Positions 21,704 to 32,163 of a stretch of 32,163 nt of DNA are shown one piece after another. The position numbers and the translations under genes are program-made. The DNA is from an uncultured Bacilli bacterium (GTDB lineage Bacteria > Bacillota_I > Bacilli_A > RF39 > UBA660). Location: positions 1 through 32,163 of the forward strand of contig CANQWY010000011.1 of assembly GCA_947627675.1 (NCBI GenBank), read 5' to 3'. A model generated the notes under the pieces. It saw only the letters and a list, made by a program, of their open reading frames with translations, made no database searches and was not told the origin of the DNA. Numbering within the stretch: position 1 is the first letter of the stretch; each line of letters starts with the position of its first letter.

Positions 21704-23701
21704 ATGGCAAATTTAAGTGATGTTAAGGGAGTAGGTCCAAAGGCATTAAGTTTACTTAATAAAATAGGTATTTCATCAATTGATGATTTAGTTATGCATT
21801 ATCCTTTTAGATATGAGTATTTAAAAAGAACAAATTTAATGGAAGCGTTAGATGATGATAAAGTAATAGTAGATGGAAAAGTTGAAAGTATTCCTATTTT
21901 AATGAGATTTAAAGCAGGACTTAATAAAATGAATTTTAGACTTATAAGTAATAGTGGTGTTGTTGGAGTATCAATTTTTAATAGAGCTTTTTTGAAAAAT
22001 AGTTTACAAGTTGGAACTAGTGTTATTGTAATAGGAAAATTTGATAAAAAGAAAAATATTATAACAGCCAATGATATTAAATTAGGAACTCTTTCTGATA
22101 AAGCTAAGATAGAGCCTGTTTATCATGTTACTCAAGGACTTACAAATAAGAATATATCTACCTATATTAATATGGCACTTTTACAATTCGGTAAAGAAAT
22201 ATCTGATTATATTCCTGATAATTATATAAATAAGTATTCTTTTTCTAATAAAAGAACTGCATTAAATATTGTACATAATCCACCAACAGATGAGAAATTA
22301 GAGGAAGCACAATATAGATTAAAATATGAAGAGTTATTTTCTTTTATGTTTAAAATCAATTATTTAAAAAAGCAGAACAAGGCTAATAATAAAGGTATTA
22401 GCAGAAAAGTACCTATCGATAAAATAAAAGATTTTATTAATAAACTTCCATTTTCTTTAACAAGTGATCAAGAAACAGCTGTATTTGAAATAATTTCTGA
22501 TATGGAAAAGAAAGGGAGAATGAACAGACTTATTCAAGGAGACGTTGGAAGCGGAAAAACAATAGTTGCTTTTATTGCTATGTATGCTAATTATTTATCT
22601 GGAATGCAATCTGCTTTAATGGCTCCTACAGAAATACTAGCTATTCAGCATTACAACAATTTAAAAGAAATATTGAAAGATACTGCTGTTAATATAGCCT
22701 TACTTACTGGATCTATATTAAAAAAGGAAAAACTTGACATATATAAAGAATTAGAAGATGGCAGTATAAATATTGTAATAGGTACACATGCTTTAATTCA
22801 AGATGATGTTATTTATAATAATCTTGGATTAGTAATAACAGATGAACAACATAGGTTTGGAGTTAATCAAAGAGCAAATTTACAAAATAAAGGTATAAGA
22901 CCTGATATTTTATATATGAGTGCGACTCCTATACCTAGAACGTATGCTTTGACAATATATGGAGACATGGATACTTCTATTATAAAGCAAAGACCAAAGG
23001 GAAGAGGAAAAATAAAAACGTATGTAAAAAGTAATAGTGAAATAAAAGATGTTTTACAATTAATGTTAGATGAGCTTAAAAAGCATCATCAAGTATATGT
23101 AATTGCTCCTTTAATAGAAGACAACAATGAAAATAGTGCTTTAGCGAGTGTGTGTGATTTAAGAGATAAGATGAAACTTGCTTTTGGTGAATATTATAAT
23201 ATTGATATGGTTCATGGAAAAATGGCTAGTAGTGCTAAGGATCTAATTATGCAAGAATTCATTCAAGGAAAAATTCAAATTCTTATTTCAACAACTGTTA
23301 TTGAGGTAGGAGTTGATGTTAGTAATGCTACTATGATGGTTATTTTTGATGCAAATAGATTTGGTCTTTCTACACTACATCAATTAAGAGGAAGAGTAGG
23401 AAGAGGTAGTAATGATTCTAAATGTGTTTTAATAAGTGATAGTGATACTGAAAGATTAAAAATTATGGAAAAAGAAGATGATGGGTTTAAAATAAGTGAA
23501 GAAGACTTTAAACTTAGAGGACATGGTGATTTATTTGGTACTAAACAAAGCGGAGATATGAATTTTAAGATTGCAAATATTAAAGATGATTATGATATTT
23601 TGTTAAAAGCAAAAAAAGATAGCGAGGAATATCTTAATTGCACAACAAATATTGATGAAATTAAATTAAAATTAATAAATTCAATGAACAATAATAGTTA
23701 A
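21704..23701 (+). CDS. recG: ATP-dependent DNA helicase RecG
   Basis: Remodels stalled replication forks and Holliday junctions. 665 aa, full length. It has an N-terminal wedge/OB region (LSDVKGVGPKALSLLNKIGI; then residues 60-150), and a helicase domain with Walker A GDVGSGKT (about 280-287), MAPTEILAIQH (Ia), DEQHRFG (II), MSATPIPRT (III), a second RecA lobe with STTVIEVGVDV (V) and LRGRVGRG (VI), and the C-terminal RecG stretch (DLFGTKQSG). ATG follows GGAAGTGG. Own promoter, no overlap with neighbours. It marks the end of the ordinary chromosomal part; the accessory island starts right behind it. Confidence 0.97.
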   Translation: MANLSDVKGVGPKALSLLNKIGISSIDDLVMHYPFRYEYLKRTNLMEALDDDKVIVDGKVESIPILMRFKAGLNKMNFRLISNSGVVGVSIFNRAFLKNSLQVGTSVIVIGKFDKKKNIITANDIKLGTLSDKAKIEPVYHVTQGLTNKNISTYINMALLQFGKEISDYIPDNYINKYSFSNKRTALNIVHNPPTDEKLEEAQYRLKYEELFSFMFKINYLKKQNKANNKGISRKVPIDKIKDFINKLPFSLTSDQETAVFEIISDMEKKGRMNRLIQGDVGSGKTIVAFIAMYANYLSGMQSALMAPTEILAIQHYNNLKEILKDTAVNIALLTGSILKKEKLDIYKELEDGSINIVIGTHALIQDDVIYNNLGLVITDEQHRFGVNQRANLQNKGIRPDILYMSATPIPRTYALTIYGDMDTSIIKQRPKGRGKIKTYVKSNSEIKDVLQLMLDELKKHHQVYVIAPLIEDNNENSALASVCDLRDKMKLAFGEYYNIDMVHGKMASSAKDLIMQEFIQGKIQILISTTVIEVGVDVSNATMMVIFDANRFGLSTLHQLRGRVGRGSNDSKCVLISDSDTERLKIMEKEDDGFKISEEDFKLRGHGDLFGTKQSGDMNFKIANIKDDYDILLKAKKDSEEYLNCTTNIDEIKLKLINSMNNNS

Positions 23702-23757
23702 TAAATCAACTTTAAAGATTTTATATGTAAAGTATTTGTAAAATTCTAATTATATCA

Positions 23758-23786
23758 TTGACTTTTGATAAATTATTGGATATGAT
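23758..23786 (+). promoter_or_regulatory. Strong promoter of a small RNA gene
   Basis: TTGACT (23758-23763), 17 bp, TATGAT (23781-23786). It is 57 bp behind recG, and no reading frame follows before a strong terminator. Confidence 0.75.
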
Positions 23787-23792
23787 TATGGT

Positions 23793-23893
23793 GCATGATG
23801 ATAATAGTCATGCTGATATCTCTCATGGTTAAATTTGAGAGAATTCAACCGAACCCCCTGAAGATAGGTCGAAAGACCTATCATTTTTGTTTT
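23793..23893 (+). ncRNA. Candidate small RNA with C-rich single-stranded motif
   Basis: About 100 nt between a near-consensus promoter and a strong terminator, with no ORF. Predicted parts: hairpin GCATGA/TCATGC (23793-23798, 23808-23813); hairpin TCTCTCA/TGAGAGA (23819-23825, 23836-23842); single-stranded ATTCAACCGAACCCCCTGAA (23843-23862); terminator stem with GAAA loop. An exposed run of five C before the terminator is the typical seed of Gram-positive regulatory RNAs that pair with G-rich SD sites; this role is inferred. A second CCCCCTGAA-stem-GAAA-stem-ATTTTTG unit occurs at 32063-32094. I do not recognise a named RNA family. Confidence 0.6.
23863..23893 (+). terminator. Terminator of the small RNA
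   Basis: GATAGGTC (23863-23870), GAAA loop, GACCTATC (23875-23882), then ATTTTTGTTTTG. Eight perfect pairs closed by a GNRA tetraloop. Confidence 0.85.
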
Positions 23894-23935
23894 GCCAAGT
23901 ATTTATAAGGGTTTGCACACATTTGAATAAATAAA

Positions 23936-23953
23936 AAGAGATGATTACCTCTT
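23936..23953 (-). terminator. Possible minus-strand terminator of the decayed ATPase gene
   Basis: Read on the minus strand: AAGAG, 8-nt loop, CTCTT, then TTTATTTATT. It lies 18 bp beyond the reconstructed end of the ATPase pseudogene. Confidence 0.45.
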
Positions 23954-23970
23954 ATTCACCTCTTATTTTT

Positions 23971-24862
23971 TTAATTTTTCATATTTTTTAGTTGATTTAA
24001 TATGTCATTTATGGATACTCCATTATTACATAAATTAGCTATTGTATCTATGACTTCATTTTAATGTGAAGTCTGTATTTATCTATACTGTTTATTACAT
24101 CTATAACTGAATTTAATGCACTTTCAAATATATGAATATAAGTATTTAATGTTTCTTCAGTTTGTTCATCAATAGACAATATTAGTTTATTATCTCTTTT
24201 TAAGACTAAATCTAAACTAGGATAATCTCTACTTTCATATTTAAAGTAAAATGTTGATTTAATATTTTCATCTTGTTTTATAGATATTTTTCCATCAACA
24301 CAAGTATCTATTGCTATACTACCTAAAGATTTTCCTTTACGATTTAAATGATGAACTATAATAATAGCAACTTTGTATTTATTGCATAGATTTCTTAATT
24401 GTGGAAATATATTTTGACTCATATCTTGATAGTTATTTAAATCATAACTATTTCCAAAATTAATACCATTAAACATATCAATAAATACTAATTTACCATT
24501 ATATTTTTCGTGAAAGTCTGATATTTCTTTTTCTACTTTTAAAATACTTAACATAGTCATACTATCTTCTGGAAAAGTATAAAAGAAATTATTATCATTA
24601 AGATTACAGTTCTATAATGAATTCTACTTATTGTTTCGGTAGGATTCATTTCTGTACTTAAATAAAGAACAGGTGTCTTTATAGTTTTAAAATTTAAAAA
24701 AGATATACCATTAGCAACAGAATTTGCTATTTGGAGAGCCATTGCTGATTTGCTAACTTTGGCTTCTCCAAGTAAACAATATAAACCATTTTTTCTAATC
24801 ATATTTTCAATGATATAATTCATCTCTACAATACTACTTTTTAATTCTGTTATTGTTTTCAT
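23971..24862 (-). pseudogene. RepA-like AAA ATPase, broken by two apparent frameshifts
   Basis: Fragment 1 (24862-24557) has GLYCLLGEAKVSKSAMALQI, a Walker A variant with Ser in place of the last Gly, and TPVLYLSTEMNPTETISRIH, as in hexameric RepA/KaiC-like ATPases. Near 24605 the frame is lost: read in the next frame, NLNDNNFFYTFPEDSMTML continues into fragment 2 (24560-24048), which has LVFIDMFNGINFG (Walker B) and VAIIIVHHLNRKGKSLGS. At an A4 tract near 24060 the frame breaks again. With one more A it would run on as NEVIDTIANLCNNGVSIND and end at 23971. Both breaks need one inserted base. Such ATPases belong to plasmids and integrated elements. Sequencing error is possible, but the neighbouring gene is broken as well. 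SD AAAGGAATT precedes the ATG. Confidence 0.75.
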
Positions 24863-24873
24863 ATAATTCCTTT

Positions 24874-25110
24874 CTATAAATATTCTTTAGCCATTTTTTC
24901 TAGGTAGTTAATATTTATTTTTAACTTATTAACCACTTCAATCATTGGTAATCTGTTATTTGGGAGAATATAACCTTTTAGAGTAATGTCGTTTTTTATT
25001 TATCTCCTAAGTTTAACTGCGTTATTTTTACCTATTTCAGCAAGTTTCATTAAATCATTTAGATCACACCATTGCTTTGAAATAAGTTTTAAAGTTTCTC
25101 TAGCATCCAT
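24874..25110 (-). pseudogene. Small HTH/excisionase-like gene with in-frame stop
   Basis: ATG at 25110 follows GGAGGAAAG. The frame encodes MDARETLKLISKQWCDLNDL and continues with MKLAEIGKNNAVKLRR, then TAA at 25000-25002. The same frame then stays open for 41 more codons (IKNDITLKGYILPNNRLPMI ... LEKMAKEYL) to TAG at 24874-24876. The joined 78-residue product has an HTH-like arrangement as in small regulators or excisionases beside RepA-like ATPases. One base change (for instance GAA to TAA) explains the stop. The next gene's SD starts at its stop codon, so the two were an operon. Function is inferred. Confidence 0.65.
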
Positions 25111-25196
25111 ATTAAACTTTCCTCCTTCCATTTTAGACTCTAGATAATTAATTATTATCTATGTATCGATTACCAACTAAAGAAAGAAATTATACG

Positions 25197-25213
25197 TGTG
25201 AGTTATACTCACA
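25197..25213. promoter_or_regulatory. Palindromic operator between the remnant and the HEPN/XRE pair
   Basis: TGTGAGT (25197-25203), TAT, ACTCACA (25207-25213), a perfect 7-bp dyad. A further half-site ACTCACA stands at 25266-25272, just upstream of the -35 of the HEPN gene. Another dyad, TAGATAAT/ATTATCTA, lies at 25141-25161. Likely bound by the XRE protein encoded downstream (inference). Confidence 0.6.
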
Positions 25214-25278
25214 GTTAAACAATATCATAATAATTTAATCAAAGTCAATATATTTTGTAATCAAAACTCACAAAAATA

Positions 25279-25307
25279 TTGTTGAATAATAAGTTTTATG
25301 TTAAAAT
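25279..25307 (+). promoter_or_regulatory. Promoter of the HEPN/XRE pair
   Basis: TTGTTG (25279-25284), 17 bp ending in TGT, TAAAAT (25302-25307): extended -10. The half-site ACTCACA abuts it upstream. Confidence 0.6.
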
Positions 25308-25322
25308 TATATTGAGGTGTAT

Positions 25323-25910
25323 ATGTTTTTGAATGAAATAGCAAAAAAATATTTTGTATTAGCTAGTCAATATTACCACACATCAAAAATTTTATTAGAA
25401 ACTATTATACAAAATGATAATTTAAGCATAGGAATAGGTTTTAGTGAAGAAGAAGCCTTGATTGATTTTAATAAAAAAATATTTAAAAGTGATGTTTATA
25501 TTTTTATACCAGCATTATTTAATAGTCTTCAAGCAGTTGAATTGTTTATAAAAGGCTTGTTATTGATAAATGAAAAAGAAATAGATTATAAGCACGCATT
25601 AGAAAATCCACTTTTAATATTAAAGGATATTTATGGTGATAAGTCGGAAATTTATAAATCAATAAAAAATTTTTATAATTTTCAAGAAGATGTGATAGGC
25701 AAATTTAAAATAATTAATCAAATAACAACAACGGAAGATTTATATGAAGCGTTACGATATCCAGAAAGTAAAAATAAAAAGAAATATGATTATAGTAGTT
25801 TAAGATTTAATGGAAAATCTGGAGTAAATTTATTTGAAAAATTATTGGATAGATTGCAAAAAATTAATAAAAATGTTTTACAAGAATTTAAAATAAAAGA
25901 GGTGTCATAA
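25323..25910 (+). CDS. HEPN-like protein, possible toxin
   Basis: 195 aa, all helical. The core YIFIPALFNSLQAVELFIKG (about 59-78) followed by LLLINEKEIDYKHALENPLL resembles the ALELxLKxxL...GHxL pattern of HEPN/AbiV-like proteins, and ALRYPESK late in the chain resembles the FRYPxxK of the same group. The ribonuclease motif RxxxxH is not evident, so RNase activity is uncertain. The start is ATG 25323 behind GAGG; GTG 25317 lies in the SD. Its stop overlaps the XRE gene's ATG by one base (TAATG), a typical coupled arrangement of toxin-antitoxin pairs. Operator sites upstream fit autoregulation. Alternative: a non-toxic accessory regulator. Confidence 0.6.
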   Translation: MFLNEIAKKYFVLASQYYHTSKILLETIIQNDNLSIGIGFSEEEALIDFNKKIFKSDVYIFIPALFNSLQAVELFIKGLLLINEKEIDYKHALENPLLILKDIYGDKSEIYKSIKNFYNFQEDVIGKFKIINQITTTEDLYEALRYPESKNKKKYDYSSLRFNGKSGVNLFEKLLDRLQKINKNVLQEFKIKEVS

Positions 25911-26434
25911 TGAATGGTAAAAATTTAGCAAGTGTAGTAAAGGAAGCTAGAGAAAAATTAGGTATCTCTCAAAGAGAATTATCAAGAAGAACAGGGATTG
26001 ATAATAATACTGTTGCTAAAATTGAGAAAGGCGAAAGAAAGAAACCTAATGTATTATCTTTAAGAAAATTAAGTGCGGTATTAAGAATTGATATAGCAAA
26101 ATTAATGAAACTAGCTGAATATAATGAAGAAGAAATTAAAGCAGTATCAAGTAATAATTATAATAGCTTTGCAATTCATACTGATAATGCACCTGTTATA
26201 ATGATAGATGATATTATAGAAACTGAAGAAGAACAGTTGCAAATCAGAAAAATAATAAAAGAATTATTAGATGATTGTGATGTAACAAAATTAAAAATTT
26301 GCGATAATTTTCAAGAAAAAGAAATAAAAAAAATAGAAAAATTAGTAGAAAAGTATAAGAAAAAAATTAATAATGAAATAAATAATTATTCAAAATCAAT
26401 AGAAAAATTAAGTAAATTAATAAATAAAAAATAA
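25910..26434 (+). CDS. XRE-family HTH regulator, possible antitoxin
   Basis: 174 aa. Residues 6-66 form a Cro/C1-type HTH: VVKEAREKLGISQRELSRRT, GIDNNTVAKIEKGERKKP and LSAVLRIDIAKLMKLA. A linker (75-105) leads to a C-terminal region with coiled-coil character (EIKKIEKLVEKYKKKINNEI and onward), suggesting oligomerisation or partner binding. It probably binds the TGTGAGT/ACTCACA dyad upstream of the pair. SD GAGGTG lies inside the end of the HEPN-like gene. No terminator is seen behind it. Confidence 0.85.
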   Translation: MNGKNLASVVKEAREKLGISQRELSRRTGIDNNTVAKIEKGERKKPNVLSLRKLSAVLRIDIAKLMKLAEYNEEEIKAVSSNNYNSFAIHTDNAPVIMIDDIIETEEEQLQIRKIIKELLDDCDVTKLKICDNFQEKEIKKIEKLVEKYKKKINNEINNYSKSIEKLSKLINKK

Positions 26435-26504
26435 TAAAAATAGAATTTAAAAATTGATAAAATCACTTGCTGAAAAAGGAAAAGATTGCAATTTCTATAC
26501 AAAA

Positions 26505-26567
26505 ATGACATGATGACAGATACATTTGTTATGTACTAGAGTATCTCATAAATGTCATTAATGTCAT
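26505..26567. repeat. Interrupted inverted repeat of ATGACA units
   Basis: ATGACATGATGACA (26505-26518) pairs with TGTCATTAATGTCAT (26553-26567) apart from a small bulge, with a 34-nt loop. Either a long leader hairpin or paired operator half-sites (ATGACA/TGTCAT four times). It lies in the 218-bp gap before the zinc-ribbon nuclease gene; I see no ORF there. Confidence 0.5.
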
Positions 26568-26577
26568 AAAGCTGTCT

Positions 26578-26629
26578 TAGCCAGCACAGGGAGCTTACTC
26601 CCGCAATTTACTTGGAGTACCAAACCCTA
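26578..26629 (-). repeat. Left copy of a diverged inverted repeat flanking the nuclease cassette
   Basis: Read on the minus strand it shares three blocks, in order, with the right copy at 29267-29326: TAGGG-TTTGGTACTCC, GCGGGAGTA and GTGCTGGCTA. Within it, TACTCC (26596-26601) can pair with GGAGTA (26614-26619), or CTCCC (26598-26602) with GGGAG (26589-26593); the two stems exclude each other. Confidence 0.6.
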
Positions 26630-26652
26630 GTCAGATATAGGAGGTTATTGTA

Positions 26653-28617
26653 TTGGAAAAAAAATATATAATTGATAATAAAGTACTAATGGAACAATGG
26701 GATTATGTGAAGAACCAAAATGATAATATTTTCCCAGAAAATATTACTACAGGTAACTCAAATATTAAAATATGGTGGAAATGTGGAAAAGGCCATTCTT
26801 ATCAACAAATAGCTAGATCTAAAGTAAAAGGTATTGGGTGTCCAATTTGTTCCAACAAGCAAGTATTAAAAGGTGTCAATGATTTGGCAACTACTAATCC
26901 TGAATTGTTAAATGAATGGAATTATGAAAAAAATAATAGTATTGGAGTATACCCATATAACGTTACTAAAGGTTCAGAGAAAAAAGTTTGGTGGATATGT
27001 CCTGAATGTAAGGAGACTTATGAAGCATTTTTATATTCGAAAAAAGAATTAGTAGGTTGCCCTTATTGTAGTGGTAAAAAGTTTAAAAAGGGAGTCAATG
27101 ATATTTTTACTCTAATTCCTAATTGGAAAAAAAATTGGAATTTTGAATTAAATCAAAAATATGGAATTGATGCCTATAACATAGGAAGACATAGTCAAAT
27201 AAAAGCCTATTGGCTTTGTAGTGAGTGTGGAAAAAGTTTTCAACGATCTTTGGCAAAAACAAATGATATTGTATTATGTAATGATTGCTCTAAAAGAATT
27301 GGTAATATAAATAAAAAAAATACTATTTTAAAAAATAGAGGAAGCCTAAAACAAAATTATCCATTCCTTATGAATGAATGGGATTATGAAAAAAATAATA
27401 AATTAGGTATAGAGCCAGATAAAGTCACTAGTGGATCTAATGTCAAAGTTTGGTGGATATGTCCTAATGGTCATTCCTATAAATCAACTATTTCACACAA
27501 AATTAGTGGTCGTGGTTGTCCAAAATGTTCAAAAGAAATGAGTATATCATTTCCTGAAAAGGCAATTGTATATTATTTGAAAAAGGTTGATAACAATATT
27601 TTAGAAAGCTATACTCCTGATTGTTTAAAAGGAAAAGAAATTGATATTTATATTCCTAGTAAAAAAATTGGAATTGAATATGATGGAAAAAATTGGCACA
27701 ATGACCCTAATAGGGATATGGAAAAAAATAAACTATGTAAAAAAAATAATATAATGCTATATAGAATTAGAGAGAGTGGCTGTCCAAAATTAGATGGTTA
27801 CTCAATAGATATATATTATGATAGCAATAATAGTTATATTAATCTTAATGAACCAATAAAAAAATTAATAATTGATATTTATAATACAAAAATAGATGTA
27901 GATATTGAAAGAGATAAAATTAAAATCTACGAGTTATTAATTTATACTATTAAGAGTAATTCTTTAGAAAGTGTATATCCTGATATAGCTAGAGAATGGG
28001 ATTATAAAAAAAATAAACCTTTAACACCAAATCAATTTTATTGTACATCTTCAAGAAAAGTATGGTGGAAGTGTGAAAAAGGTCATTCTTATGAATCAAC
28101 TATAAGTCATCGAACAATGGATAAAAATAATTGCCCTTATTGTTCTAATCAAAAATTGTTAATCGGATATAACGATTTAGCAACCACACATCCTTATATT
28201 TTAAAAGAATGGGATTATGATCTTAACAATAAAAATCAAGTATATCCTAGTAATGTATTTAGTGGAAGCCATAAAAAAGTATGGTGGAAATGCGAAAAAG
28301 GACATGAATGGGAAGCAAGTATTATAAATAGAATAAGAGGTAGAAATTGTCCTATTTGTTCTAATAAAATTGTTGTAAAAGGAATCAATGATATAACTAC
28401 AACTCATCCTATAATTTTAGATATGTGGAATTATTATAAAAATGAAAAATTAGATATTTATCCTCAAGATTATTCTTATGGTAGTTCAAAGAAAGTATGG
28501 TGGATTTGTCCAAAATGTAAAAACCAATGGCAACAACGAATAAATCATATTATAAGCGGAATAGGATGTCCAAATTGTCATTATAATTCGATAAAAAGCA
28601 GAAAGGAAGTAAAATAA
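26653..28617 (+). CDS. Seven-zinc-ribbon (DUF4379-like) protein with embedded PD-(D/E)XK nuclease domain
   Basis: 654 aa. Seven repeats of about 57 residues with the pattern EWDYxKN...P..VTxGSxxKVWWxCxxGHxYxxxIxxR..GxxCPxCS occur at about 11-68, 85-141, 158-213, 238-294, 445-498, 516-571 and 588-643. Each is a four-ligand zinc ribbon of the DUF4379 probable zinc-ribbon type. Repeats 4 and 5 are separated by a Vsr/DUF559-like nuclease domain (298-395): SFPEKAIVYYLKK, KEIDIYIPSKKIGIEYDG (Asp331, Glu342) and NWH, then IMLYRIRE. Likely a DNA-binding endonuclease; target unknown. TTG start 8 nt behind AGGAGG. The next gene begins 2 nt after its stop, so it is an operon of two. Proteins like this occur in phage-defence and mobile regions. 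Confidence 0.85.
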   Translation: MEKKYIIDNKVLMEQWDYVKNQNDNIFPENITTGNSNIKIWWKCGKGHSYQQIARSKVKGIGCPICSNKQVLKGVNDLATTNPELLNEWNYEKNNSIGVYPYNVTKGSEKKVWWICPECKETYEAFLYSKKELVGCPYCSGKKFKKGVNDIFTLIPNWKKNWNFELNQKYGIDAYNIGRHSQIKAYWLCSECGKSFQRSLAKTNDIVLCNDCSKRIGNINKKNTILKNRGSLKQNYPFLMNEWDYEKNNKLGIEPDKVTSGSNVKVWWICPNGHSYKSTISHKISGRGCPKCSKEMSISFPEKAIVYYLKKVDNNILESYTPDCLKGKEIDIYIPSKKIGIEYDGKNWHNDPNRDMEKNKLCKKNNIMLYRIRESGCPKLDGYSIDIYYDSNNSYINLNEPIKKLIIDIYNTKIDVDIERDKIKIYELLIYTIKSNSLESVYPDIAREWDYKKNKPLTPNQFYCTSSRKVWWKCEKGHSYESTISHRTMDKNNCPYCSNQKLLIGYNDLATTHPYILKEWDYDLNNKNQVYPSNVFSGSHKKVWWKCEKGHEWEASIINRIRGRNCPICSNKIVVKGINDITTTHPIILDMWNYYKNEKLDIYPQDYSYGSSKKVWWICPKCKNQWQQRINHIISGIGCPNCHYNSIKSRKEVK

Positions 28618-28619
28618 AT

Positions 28620-29249
28620 ATGGAAAAGAAGGAATTATTACAAAAATACTTAAAAGAAGCAAATGATTTTTTAGGCAAGAATTTAACAGCGGATGATAGC
28701 AAATTTAAAGCTTGGAATCATTCTTTAATAAGATTTTTGGAAGCAGAATTTGGTAAGGATTCTACAACTACAAAATTATTTTCAAATAGAGTTTATACTT
28801 TACTTGTATTTTATGAAGCTTCACATTCTGAATATGTAGAAGCTTTTGAGGATAGTTTAAAGATATCAATAGAAGATTTAAAAAGATTAGTAGAAGAAAT
28901 TGACAATGAAAATTTTAGAACAACAAATAATACGAAAAAAAATCAAAATGAGCCACAATTAGCAGTTAATATAGTTAATAGTAATAATAATTCTAATGTG
29001 ATTAACCAAATAGTTATTTTAACAAATGAAGAAATAATAGAAAAAATAGAAGATAATACTTTTTTAGATGATGAATCAAAAGAAGAATTAATGAATGAGT
29101 TAAATAAAATAGAAGAAATTAAAAATAGTTCTGATTCTAAATCAAAGAAATGGAAGAAAGCTAAATGTATATTGTCTTTCATAATTGATAAGGGTGCAGA
29201 TATAGCTATAATGTTTATTCCCAAAATATTAGAGGCAATTTCTAAATAA
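28620..29249 (+). CDS. Helical protein with Asn-rich linker and hydrophobic C-terminus, possible effector
   Basis: 209 aa, not confidently recognised. Residues 1-100 are helical, with FKAWNHSLIRFLEAEFGKDS (29-48), a WxxxxxxFLExxFGxDS pattern I associate loosely with N-terminal domains of multi-domain defence proteins. Residues 103-131 are an Asn-rich linker (NIVNSNNNSNVINQIVI), 132-172 acidic helices, 176-182 a basic patch (KKWKKAK), and 183-205 a hydrophobic helix (ILSFIIDKGADIAIMFIPKI). The basic patch plus hydrophobic helix could insert in a membrane. ATG 28620 follows AAAGGAAG that lies in the nuclease gene, so both are translated together. Alternative: a structural partner of the nuclease. 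Confidence 0.65.
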   Translation: MEKKELLQKYLKEANDFLGKNLTADDSKFKAWNHSLIRFLEAEFGKDSTTTKLFSNRVYTLLVFYEASHSEYVEAFEDSLKISIEDLKRLVEEIDNENFRTTNNTKKNQNEPQLAVNIVNSNNNSNVINQIVILTNEEIIEKIEDNTFLDDESKEELMNELNKIEEIKNSSDSKSKKWKKAKCILSFIIDKGADIAIMFIPKILEAISK

Positions 29250-29266
29250 CAAGTATCGCTTATTAA

Positions 29267-29326
29267 TAGGGGTTGGGTATTCCCACATAAGAATTTTGCG
29301 CGGGAGTACAAATTCAGTGCTTGCTA
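29267..29326 (+). repeat. Right copy of the diverged inverted repeat flanking the nuclease cassette
   Basis: Contains TAGGGGTTGGGTATTCC, GCGGGAGTA and GTGCTTGCTA in the order and spacing of the left copy read on the minus strand. GTATTCCC (29277-29284) pairs with GGGAGTAC (29302-29309), keeping the stem of the left copy despite sequence differences. It lies between the effector-like gene and the ADP-ribosylhydrolase gene. Confidence 0.6.
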
Positions 29327-29390
29327 GACCAAAAATCCACTCATTATATAGAATTATGTATAATATTTTGTTAAAAAGGTAGGTGTAAAA

Positions 29391-31124
29391 ATGTCAAAAT
29401 ATGTTGATAGTATATTAGGTCATGCTATAGGTGATGCAATGGGTGTTCCAACAGAATTTTGTATTCGTGAACATTTAGTAGAACACCCAGTATTAGATAT
29501 GGTTGGATCAAAAAAAGTAGGACAACCTGCGGGATCTTGGTCAGATGACACTTCTATGGAAATAGCTACTATTGAATCGCTTATAGAAAATAAGAAATTT
29601 AATTATTCAGATATAATGTCTAGATGGTGCGATTGGTTAAATAAAGGCGAATATACACCTAATGGTGAAGTGTTCGATGTTGGAAGAACTTGTTTAAGAG
29701 CTTGTAGAAATTATATGAATGGAATAAATCCAGTTGATTGCGGTTTATCAGATATTAACTCAAATGGAAATGGTTCGTTAATGCGAATACTTCCTGTAGC
29801 ACTATACTCCTATTCAAACCATCTTAACAATGAAGAAGTAAGAAAATTATCGGATGAAGTTTCATCTCTTACTCATTCTCATAATATTAGTAAAATAGCT
29901 TGCTATATGTATGTTAGATTTATAATTAATTTATTAAAAGGAATGTCTAAAGAAAGAGCTTACAAATATTTAAGATTAGACGATTATAGTAACTATGATG
30001 AAGACTCAATTTCAAAATACGATAGATTAATAAAAGAAGATATTTCTAAATTGAAAATTAATGATATAAAATCTACAGGATATGTAGTAGATACTTGGGA
30101 ATGTGCATTGTGGATATTATTGAAATCTAAAAGTTATAAAGAAACACTAATAGCATCTACAAATATTGGTAATGATACGGATACAATTGGTGCTATTGCT
30201 GGCTCAATGGCAGGAATAATTTATGGATATGAATCTTTTCCTAAAGAATGGTTATCTAAATTAAAAAGAAAAGATTATTTAATTGATCTTGCAACTAAAT
30301 TTGAAAATGAATTTATAAATGTAAAAAAAGATTCTGTATTAGGTGCAATTATAGGTGATATAGCGGGCTCTAGATTTGAGATAAATAATAATCGTAAAAA
30401 AGATTTTGAATTTTTACATCCTAAATTTTGCAGATTTACTGATGATACAGTAATGACCTTAGCAATAGCTAAAACTTTAATGAACAATAAAGAGAACAAT
30501 GTTAATTTAGAAGAAAATGCTATTAATACTATGGTTGAAATCGGAAGAAGATATCCACAATGTGGTTATGGTAGAAGCTTTTTTGATTGGATAAATAATG
30601 ATAATCATGAACCTTATGGAAGTTATGGAAATGGTGCTGCTATGAGAGTGGGAGCAATACCATTATTTATAAACAATATTGATGAAATAAAAAGGGTTAC
30701 AAAAATATTAACTGATGTATCTCATAATCATGAGGATAGCGAAAAAGGAGCAGAAGCAGTATGCGTAGCTATTCATTTGGCCTTAATTGGAAAATCTAAA
30801 GATGAAATAAAAAAATATATTTTAGATAATTATTATGAACTTAATGATAATGTTACCAATTTATCTAAAAATTATAAATTTCAAATAAAATATAGTGAAA
30901 CTGTTAAATCTGCATTGATTGCTTTTTTTGAATCAACTGGTTTTGAAGATGCAATTAGAAATGCAATATCTATAGGTGGAGATAGTGATACAATTGGAGT
31001 AATTACAGGTAGTATTGCTGGAGCGTATTATGGTGTTCCATATTCAATTAAAGAAGATGCGTTACAATTCTTAGATGACTATTTAAGAGATATATACTTA
31101 CAAATAGACAATTTAAGGAGGTAA
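29391..31124 (+). CDS. Tandem ADP-ribosylglycohydrolase (two DraG-type domains)
   Basis: 577 aa with two complete ADP-ribosylhydrolase domains. Domain 1 (about 4-300): GHAIGDAMGVPTEF, SDDTSM (51-56), NGNGSLMRILP (125-135) and GNDTDTIGAIAGSMAG (260-275). Domain 2 (about 314-577): LGAIIGDIAGSRFE, TDDTVMTLAIA (350-360), YGNGAAMRVG (412-421) and GGDSDTIGVITGSIAG (519-534). The Asp pairs that hold the two magnesium ions are kept in both, so both look active. They remove ADP-ribose from protein or nucleic acid, or act on free ADP-ribose derivatives. Start ATG follows GGTAGGTGT; TATAAT at 29359-29364 may be its -10. The next gene is 4 bp downstream. No ADP-ribosyltransferase is in the window. Confidence 0.92.
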   Translation: MSKYVDSILGHAIGDAMGVPTEFCIREHLVEHPVLDMVGSKKVGQPAGSWSDDTSMEIATIESLIENKKFNYSDIMSRWCDWLNKGEYTPNGEVFDVGRTCLRACRNYMNGINPVDCGLSDINSNGNGSLMRILPVALYSYSNHLNNEEVRKLSDEVSSLTHSHNISKIACYMYVRFIINLLKGMSKERAYKYLRLDDYSNYDEDSISKYDRLIKEDISKLKINDIKSTGYVVDTWECALWILLKSKSYKETLIASTNIGNDTDTIGAIAGSMAGIIYGYESFPKEWLSKLKRKDYLIDLATKFENEFINVKKDSVLGAIIGDIAGSRFEINNNRKKDFEFLHPKFCRFTDDTVMTLAIAKTLMNNKENNVNLEENAINTMVEIGRRYPQCGYGRSFFDWINNDNHEPYGSYGNGAAMRVGAIPLFINNIDEIKRVTKILTDVSHNHEDSEKGAEAVCVAIHLALIGKSKDEIKKYILDNYYELNDNVTNLSKNYKFQIKYSETVKSALIAFFESTGFEDAIRNAISIGGDSDTIGVITGSIAGAYYGVPYSIKEDALQFLDDYLRDIYLQIDNLRR

Positions 31125-31128
31125 AATA

Positions 31129-31497
31129 ATGAGTAAAGATGATATGTTAAAAGTATTAGATGAAAGTATTATAGCTATAGAAAATAATAAATATAAAGCT
31201 GAATTTATTAATGGAGGATATAGTTATTCTGATAATCTAACAAATATAATAAAATTATTAGAAATTTATCAAAAGCTTTACTTTAATAAAGGAATGGATT
31301 TGAATAAAACTAAATTAATAAAAAATAATAATCAAGATAATTTTAATTTATTAGAATGCATAGTTTATTTTTCATATTTATGGCATCTTGAGGGATCTGG
31401 AATTTCGGTTGGAATTATTTATAATAGAATTAAGACAGGACAATATTTAAAGGCACTAAAACGATTTGAAAAATTACTTAAAGAAAATAATGATTAA
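31129..31497 (+). CDS. Small partner of the ADP-ribosylhydrolase (DUF6508-like, tentative)
   Basis: 122 aa, helical, no signal peptide. The C-terminal part CIVYFSYLWHLEGSGISVGI leading to NRIKTGQYLKALKRFEKLL recalls the ending of DUF6508 proteins, which often accompany ADP-ribosylglycohydrolases; similarity is weak. It starts 4 bp behind the hydrolase gene with a full AAGGAGG SD, so the two are cotranscribed. Its stop codon is part of a 16-bp perfect inverted repeat shared with the convergent tnpV-like gene. Role unknown; immunity or substrate-adaptor functions are guesses. Confidence 0.6.
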   Translation: MSKDDMLKVLDESIIAIENNKYKAEFINGGYSYSDNLTNIIKLLEIYQKLYFNKGMDLNKTKLIKNNNQDNFNLLECIVYFSYLWHLEGSGISVGIIYNRIKTGQYLKALKRFEKLLKENND

Positions 31498-31528
31498 AGA
31501 CTAAGAGTGCGTTCTTAGTCTTTAATCA
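31491..31528. terminator. Perfect 16-bp bidirectional terminator covering both stop codons
   Basis: TGATTAAAGACTAAGA (31491-31506), loop GTGCGT, TCTTAGTCTTTAATCA (31513-31528). The TAA of the partner gene (31495-31497) and the TAA of the tnpV-like gene (complement of 31522-31524) both lie in the stem. U-tracts are weak on both sides, so it may also act as an mRNA 3' protecting hairpin. Confidence 0.65.
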
Positions 31529-31875
31529 TATATATCTTCTTTTAGAATAATTTCTTCAGCAATATTTTTTAAACTATTCATTTTTTGAGTCCAAAGTAAT
31601 GGATCTTTTTCTTTTAATTCTTCTGTAATGGTTGGGTCATTGGTAATTAGTTGTTTCATTAAAAATTCAAATTTTTCTAAAGTATTATTACTAACTGAAA
31701 AAAGATATTCATTAAGTTTTTCTTTCATCAATAGTTCTTGATATAAAGCTTTTTTATATTGTTTTAAATAATTAAGTTTTAATAAACCATATTTGTTTAA
31801 TGATTTATTTTCTTTTTCAGATAGTATAAGATTAGGCAAATAATAATCTCCATATTTAGTATAATTTAATTTCAT
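31522..31875 (-). CDS. tnpV: TnpV-like transposon-encoded protein
   Basis: 117 aa, matching TnpV as I know it from clostridial mobile elements: YTKYGDYYLPNLILSEKENK, then KYGLLKLNYLKQYKKALYQE, LLMKEKLNEYL, the ITEELKEKDPLLWTQKMNSL block, and IAEEIILKEDIY at the C-terminus. No enzymatic motif. TnpV accompanies integrative elements and resistance-gene transposons; its function is not established. ATG at 31875 lies behind AAAGGATT. Two tandem TTAGGTACCCA units stand about 55-75 bp upstream. Its presence marks this region as mobile DNA; no transposase or recombinase gene is inside the window. Confidence 0.85.
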   Translation of the reverse strand: MKLNYTKYGDYYLPNLILSEKENKSLNKYGLLKLNYLKQYKKALYQELLMKEKLNEYLFSVSNNTLEKFEFLMKQLITNDPTITEELKEKDPLLWTQKMNSLKNIAEEIILKEDIYD

Positions 31876-31925
31876 AATTTTAATCCTTTCTTTTAATAAA
31901 GAATTATTAAGTAGTATTGTTATTA

Positions 31926-31948
31926 TTAGGTACCCATTTAGGTACCCA
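31926..31948. repeat. Tandem TTAGGTACCCA pair upstream of tnpV
   Basis: TTAGGTACCCA at 31926-31936 and again at 31938-31948, 12-bp period, so both lie on nearly one helix face. Each holds the palindrome GGTACC. Likely a regulator-binding site or element-end iteron. Confidence 0.6.
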
Positions 31949-31959
31949 AATAGTAAAAT

Positions 31960-31987
31960 TTGATAAAATTATTTAAATTTTTATAAT
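31960..31987 (+). promoter_or_regulatory. Possible promoter leading to the pre-intron terminator
   Basis: TTGATA (31960-31965), 16 bp, TATAAT (31982-31987). A start near 31994 would give a transcript of about 100 nt ending at 32094, the same length as the small RNA behind recG. In such AT-rich DNA a chance match is possible. Confidence 0.4.
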
Positions 31988-32062
31988 TAGATTTAATTTT
32001 AAAATGCTTAAAATATAAGAAAATAATAAACAATAATTTATTTTATGTGTATATATATTCAG

Positions 32063-32094
32063 CCCCCTGAAGGAGCCGAAAGGCTCCATTTTTG
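32063..32094 (+). terminator. Terminator with CCCCCTGAA lead, target site of the group IIC intron
   Basis: CCCCCTGAA (32063-32071), stem GGAGCC (32072-32077), loop GAAA, stem GGCTCC (32082-32087), ATTTTTG (32088-32094). The flanks equal those of the small-RNA terminator at 23854-23889, while the stem sequence is entirely different. The intron begins directly after the final G. Confidence 0.75.
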
Positions 32095-32163
32095 GTGTGC
32101 CGTGCATGGCATATATCTAGTTGGTGAAAGTCCAATACACGCGTAGGTATCGACGAAGTGTTA
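32095..32163 (+). mobile_element. 5' end of a group II intron, class C (cut by window end)
   Basis: Begins GTGTGCC, the 5' consensus of IIC introns (GUGYG). Domain I hairpins follow: GCC/GGC around GTGCAT (32099-32110), then TTGG/CCAA around TGAAAGT (32121-32135), similar to the start of the Oceanobacillus IIC ribozyme as I remember it. IIC introns insert directly behind intrinsic terminator hairpins, which is exactly the position here. Reverse transcriptase and domains V/VI would lie beyond the window. Confidence 0.8.

Follow-up and report, generated by a model that had tools for sequence, protein, structure and literature searches.

In the window, by which we mean the whole analysed stretch of 32,163 nucleotides from an uncultured Bacilli bacterium, the region downstream of recG raised the question whether positions 23758–23893 encode a small RNA with an exposed run of five cytosines, and what such an RNA could act on. 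Judging from the comparison of related sequences, this stretch is a real sRNA gene. The reading favored here, to which a probability of roughly two in three is assigned, combines a conserved trans-acting sRNA that would pair with Shine-Dalgarno (SD) sequences carrying a run of guanines with the use of its seed as the attachment core of integrative elements. The features of the locus are collected in Table 1.

Table 1. Features of the sRNA locus, of the rest of the window and of the related element on contig C16 (window positions unless stated otherwise).
Feature	Position	Strand	Basis or remark
recG	21704..23701	+	ORF; usual upstream neighbor of the sRNA gene
Promoter TTGACT-17-TATGAT	23758..23786	+	sequence; kept in homologs
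sRNA gene, predicted transcript	23792..23893	+	covariance models R1 and R2
Hairpin 1	23793..23813	+	23793–23798 pairs with 23808–23813; covariation
Hairpin 2	23815..23846	+	upper stem 23820–23825 with 23836–23841; covariation
Hairpin 2, lower stem	23815–23819 with 23842–23846	+	imperfect in the window copy
Unpaired core AACCGAACCCCCTGAA	23847..23862	+	core columns invariant in homolog alignments
CCCCC within the unpaired core	23854–23858	+	mean unpaired probability 0.93, 88 homologs
Terminator, putatively supplied by an integrated element	23863..23889	+	identity to the left end of the C16 element
Putative integrative element, about 8.2 kb	23854..32072	.	CCCCCTGAAG repeats at the ends; deduced from ends and cargo
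Integrase 3′ end remnant	23989..24159	-	fused to AAA_25 reading frame 24048–24560
Far attachment end	32063..32094	+	CCCCCTGAAG, displaced terminator stem and ATTTTTG; not an RNA gene
Group-II-intron-like 5′ end	32095..32163	+	repeated sequence behind the terminator; contig stops within
C16 element, 8.5 kb	10468–18968 of L024		TCAGGGGG repeats at both ends
C16 tyrosine integrase	17637–18857 of L024		PF00589, E 9e-27; about 110 nt separate its end from the right-hand repeat

For a stretch of 107 nt, fold prediction yielded two hairpins and a terminator with a GAAA loop and left CCCCC unpaired, which is the architecture that an earlier note on this DNA had described; the fold has a z-score of -4.55, and none of 200 shuffled sequences was equally stable. 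The terminator stem (23863–23882) is followed by ATTTTTG, and between hairpins and terminator lies the invariant, unpaired AACC(R)AACCCCCUGAA. All six frames of the region 23741–23900 are short and no meaningful reading frame was found there, in agreement with the absence of an ORF in the earlier description. A peptide-coding mini-gene, for which the short open stretches could be quoted, can be given practically no weight, as no frame of note is present and the changes in the stems are compensatory. Exact matches of CCCCCTGAA were found twice in the window, at 23854 and 32063. If one mismatch is allowed, at least two matches occur in 31 of 100 shuffled sequences; the motif count alone is therefore not significant, and comparative data had to decide.

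A first DNA search covered 60 genomes, namely the window's own and 59 relatives, and gave matches in 18 of them, some being short matches elsewhere. The gene with CCCCCTGAA in place was found in 11 relatives besides the window's genome, and these sequences were aligned. Conservation across the 12 rows extends to the promoter, the hairpins and AACC(R)AACCCCCTGAA, but not to the terminator stem. As MAFFT placed one arm of hairpin 2 wrongly when the relatives were aligned, its alignments were dropped; a hand-padded alignment of the 12 rows became the basis of the first covariance model and was later replaced by a model-made alignment. A covariance-model search, which the earlier note had proposed with two copies as its basis, was run with this 12-row model; of the 386 genomes in the window's family 281 gave a match, almost always one per genome, and these represent 127 of 150 genera. 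With an improved model, 40 of the 395 genomes of a class-wide draw showed a match, and 39 of these belong to the window's family, for which the draw listed 54 genomes (39/54). The single match outside (genome G497, contig C5, locus L282) lies on a 3-kb contig of a genome from another family. This contig also carries a recG that is 66% identical to the window's, and since recG and RNA are found together as in the window's family, it is probably a misbinned stray contig of that family.

Furthermore, a scan of named genomes with the 19–20-nt core alone returned at least 115 stretches. The core matches listed come nearly all from uncultured Bacilli, Tenericutes, Erysipelotrichaceae, Clostridia or unnamed bacteria and include Candidatus Onthousia and Scybalousia. 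All 64 loci which had been fetched by the core alone and given to the model match the full RNA, and in the full model run each of the 100 sources matched, with 103 matches in total, three of which are weak second matches. The resulting model-made alignment comprises 100 sequences, 86 of them distinct. Among the distinct sequences compensatory changes were found in all 17 stem pairs (6/6 in hairpin 1, 11/11 in hairpin 2), 97.6% of the cells are paired, and none of 500 shuffles reached any of these measures, the alignment itself having been fitted to the structure. Sliding the stem partners abolishes the covariation signal, and compensatory changes were already present in 9 of the 17 pairs of the hand alignment.

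None of the 4227 families of Rfam 15 matches the sRNA at its gathering threshold. In the window, a tRNA was the sole match and the best sub-threshold match to the sRNA gene had an E-value of 2.2; among the matches listed for seven homologous loci, one overlapped an RNA gene (BTnc231, 25.4 bits versus a gathering threshold of 80.4). The Rfam model of RsaE gave no match in the window, the sRNA gene or the seven homologous loci. The distribution within the family and the searches against Rfam bear out the suggestion of a new RNA family, and on these sequence comparisons little doubt is left that the sRNA family is both real and new.

The anatomy of the gene was compared in 98 homologs (95 distinct), after two cut-off sequences and the three second matches had been dropped. 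The TTGACT-17-TATGAT promoter of the earlier note is found again with at least 9 of 12 matching positions in 92 of the 95 distinct homologs; in 81 of them the spacer has 17 nt, and in 79 the -10 element ends 5–6 nt before hairpin 1. A terminator directly follows CCCCCTGAA in 89 of the 90 distinct homologs with enough sequence, locus L134 being the sole exception. The core of about 16 nt (AACCRAACCCCCUGAA) is invariant and predicted to be exposed. Its CCCCC has an unpaired probability above 0.5 in all 88 homologs tested (mean 0.93), so that the exposed C-rich stretch typical of sRNAs with a C-rich seed was found throughout and the proposed exposed C5 holds. The gene is single-copy, has its own promoter and typically lies about 65–160 nt downstream of recG. 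Among the 94 loci for which 400 nt or more upstream are available, 69 have recG as the upstream neighbor, duplicate loci being kept in this count. An RNA ending in a terminator could also be the leader or attenuator of a downstream gene. However, the downstream content differs by locus and is often the 3′ end of an integrase gene on the opposite strand, and such a role is hardly to be expected.

The 3′ part of the sRNA locus recurs without the RNA on contig C16 of the window's genome (G000). There, an adjoining integrase and direct repeats at both ends, as expected for tyrosine-recombinase elements, delimit an insertion which interrupts a surface-protein gene: if the flanks are joined, the frame of this gene reads open, and the core that it shares with the RNA gene, TCAGGGGG, lies in the part coding for SGGTWE. 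Positions 23854–24159 of the window and the left end of the C16 element share 98% identity over 307 bp. Beyond 24159 the identity gives way to an AAA_25 gene, only the C-terminus of the integrase being left, and the chimeric frame 24048–24560 (minus strand) probably arose when two elements recombined. The simplest view of 23854–32072 is an element of 8.2 kb whose integrase is truncated and whose cargo encodes TnpV, HEPN, HTH, DUF4379 and ADP_ribosyl_GH (ADP-ribosylglycohydrolase) proteins. In 20 of 98 loci a relative of the integrase is encoded on the opposite strand, 88–308 nt downstream of the RNA; in this count L048 and L086 are one genome and the window's remnant is left out. In addition, identical terminator cassettes were found behind different RNAs; seven loci, for instance, share one 45-nt downstream stretch. 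Conversely, identical RNAs are followed by different downstream sequences in 10 groups, some of which differ by little.

It is considered highly probable that CCCCCTGA is the attachment core of integrative elements which insert right behind the seed. Tyrosine-recombinase elements would integrate after CCCCCTGA, a part of the seed; the former terminator would be displaced and a new one provided by the element, and the RNA would thereby remain intact. The terminator stems would vary between the RNA genes because the elements bring their own and replace the old ones, and CCCCCTGAA would be kept because it is both needed by the RNA and recognized by the elements. The seed of the sRNA would then double as an attachment core, terminator swapping would explain the unrelated end stems of related RNAs, and the use of the gene by elements is possibly why many assemblies break there. 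The reverse relationship, in which the core is conserved as an integration site and the RNA is a part of the mobile elements, could be read from the identity of CCCCCTGA with the element core and from the many loci with an integrase close behind. It is very unlikely, however, as the elements include neither promoter nor hairpins, both of which are on the side of recG, the element copies on C16 and at 32063 carry core and terminator only, and the stems covary.

No relative of the integrase was found among viral contigs in a pattern search, and those found in phage records are all below 60% identity. Two IMG/VR phage contigs (L471 and L472) carry TATTCAACCGAATCCCCCTGAA. Because of their weak scores with the RNA model (E 0.016 and 0.041) and the absence of any integrase or recG relative, these matches were set aside as chance rather than counted as RNA genes; their core is probably fortuitous and possibly a mimic of the seed.

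The second terminator at 32063–32094 is present as the earlier note had described it, but it does not belong to a second copy of the RNA. The RNA model scored this site with 14.6 bits (E 0.19), compared to 61.4 bits for the RNA, and neither hairpins nor a promoter of the sRNA kind were found there. The occurrence of CCCCCTGAAG at this site is best attributed to a duplication of the attachment core by the integrative element, which removes the argument that the motif and not the stem is under selection. The ATTTTTG flank that had been taken as conserved likewise resolves into a T-run with a G, after which the 5′ end of a repeated, intron-like sequence begins. Further copies of this sequence are located on contigs C63, C17 and C38 of the same genome, the last with 91% identity. 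A T-run with a final G stands ahead of the copies on C63 and C17, one of which comes shortly after a tRNA-like sequence. In all, a T-run with G precedes GTGTGCC at three of the four genomic places, the copy on C38 being unmatched by that scan. Three of the four copies are situated at contig ends, so that the repeat probably breaks the assembly.

Group IIC introns are described as inserting behind intrinsic terminators (PMC4424553), and such a position was found for the repeat at three of the four places. We infer from this sequence context that it is a group IIC-intron-like insertion. In contrast to complete introns of this group, only a 5′ end is present in the window, for which RF02003 gave 12.2 bits (E 1.3), far below threshold, and the one related locus examined, L225, showed no reverse transcriptase. 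Similar plasmid sequences among the matches listed carry no annotation.

Integrative elements that enter the 3′ ends of tRNA genes restore the 3′ end of the RNA. Here, by comparison, the RNA is a putative regulatory one and the restored part would be a terminator whose sequence is free. An sRNA locus that serves as an integration site has a precedent in the conserved PrrF1/PrrF2 locus of Pseudomonas aeruginosa, which is described as being used by XerC/D-type recombinase elements (PMC8373256). The islands reported in that source lie downstream of PrrF1 or PrrF2, whereas at the present locus the attachment core would fall within the seed and the terminator would be replaced. Among Bacilli, sRNAs with C-rich regions are known as RoxS, FsrA and CsfG from Bacillus subtilis and RsaE from Staphylococcus (PMC8216469). 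They are likewise short RNAs with exposed C-rich stretches, which according to this source pair with mRNAs; the RNA described here differs by its one invariant C5 core, other hairpins, another host group and the lack of an Rfam match. In the literature search the core was not found in a related context, the string matches being unrelated as far as titles and abstract openings tell, and no small RNA was reported downstream of recG. Titles and abstract openings on small or noncoding RNA in RF39 or Tenericutes mention no such RNA. The family that carries the RNA is probably UBA660 of the GTDB order RF39. Both are described as uncultured, genome-reduced Bacilli (PMC13155120), and these widespread gut bacteria gain a candidate conserved regulatory RNA with two testable targets.

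These targets follow from the proposal that the RNA pairs with G-rich ribosome-binding sites. As a chromosomal, single-copy and trans-acting sRNA of one family of uncultured Bacilli, it would pair through ACCCCCU with SD sequences carrying GGGGG in place of GGAGG, and thereby block the entry of the ribosome. The pattern AGGGGGTTN{2,10}ATG was searched over 117 family genomes and 70 loci were read. Among 47 ORFs of at least 40 amino acids one protein, T1, recurs (4/47); AGGGGGG is likewise found with T1 in the genome of the window. T1 is an orphan of 139 amino acids with the leader AGGGGGTT..ATG and without significant matches in Pfam, NCBIfam or PDB sequences. It is present in 105 of the 117 family genomes and, in a class search, in 23 of 198 genomes, all within the window's family. 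Its SD window contains at least five Gs in 42 of the 70 orthologs read (30 best and 40 further) and four Gs in 13; without the three orthologs that had led to T1, GGGGG is found in 39 of 67. The second likely target, T2, is a membrane-anchored surface protein with AGGGGG..ATG which was noticed by eye among the G-rich SD sequences. It is present in 103 of the 117 genomes and has a GGGGG SD in 26 of the 30 best orthologs, or in 25 of 29 if the ortholog leading to T2 is left out. As controls, GGGGG was found in the SD of 16 of 606 ORFs of about 150 amino acids or more, a generous count, and in none of 55 recG genes. Both genes were picked through a search for G-rich SDs and their orthologs are related sequences, which means that the test values suggest more independence than there is.

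The mean pairing energy between T1 leaders and the core is -14.9 versus -9.3 (sd 1.5) for shuffled cores, none of 200 being as low. GGGGG SDs pair more strongly with the RNA (-15.6 and -16.7) than with the anti-SD (-12.8 and -15.2), and the reverse is seen for GGAGG (-7.7 versus -17.5). Within the window's own genome 19 of 1000 (T1) and 17 of 1000 (T2) shuffled cores pair as well as the real one, and only six bases pair in most T2 orthologs. The proposed pairing is matched by the SD enrichment in T1 and T2, but not by the detection of the RNA: a G-run SD in T1 showed no link with it (the RNA is found in 38 of 55 versus 12 of 15 genomes, p 0.53), and several genomes without an RNA match keep a GGGGG SD in T1. 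Genomes without a match often have congeners with one, which suggests that the missing matches may be assembly gaps. Genome-wide, AGGGGG is not in excess (88 sites versus 100 for the reversed pattern). When 87 AGGGGG sites within one genome were ordered by pairing energy, this by itself did not lead to a clear answer.

The missing link would also fit a structured housekeeping or protein-binding RNA whose core is a protein site, the G-rich SDs being otherwise caused. Its near-universal, single-copy occurrence and an invariant core of about 16 nt, which exceeds a minimal seed, point in the same direction. Against this stand the extreme enrichment of G-run SDs in two conserved genes and a core that is exposed and C-rich as in known seeds, and we regard this explanation as rather unlikely. 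That the RNA is a regulator acting via G-rich SDs is somewhat favored by the sequence data. A more far-reaching version of the trans-acting sRNA, in which it serves as a family-wide post-transcriptional regulator reading a dedicated, ribosome-accepted GGGGG SD, while mobile elements converged on the same five Cs and swap terminators without harm to the seed, is tentative. If true, one sRNA would control both the conserved surface protein and the orphan protein confined to the family in these gut Bacilli with small genomes.

Two more small gene groups with GGGGG in the SD window were observed as possible further targets, namely MIQ..ILEQ proteins at three loci (L082, L083 and L093) and another pair (L152 and L169). 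Finally, repeated upstream sequences like CCTAGGGGGTTAATTATTTTGTCAAA were found at L248, L249 and L265 (contigs C21 and C46 of G000), which perhaps represent an operator family.
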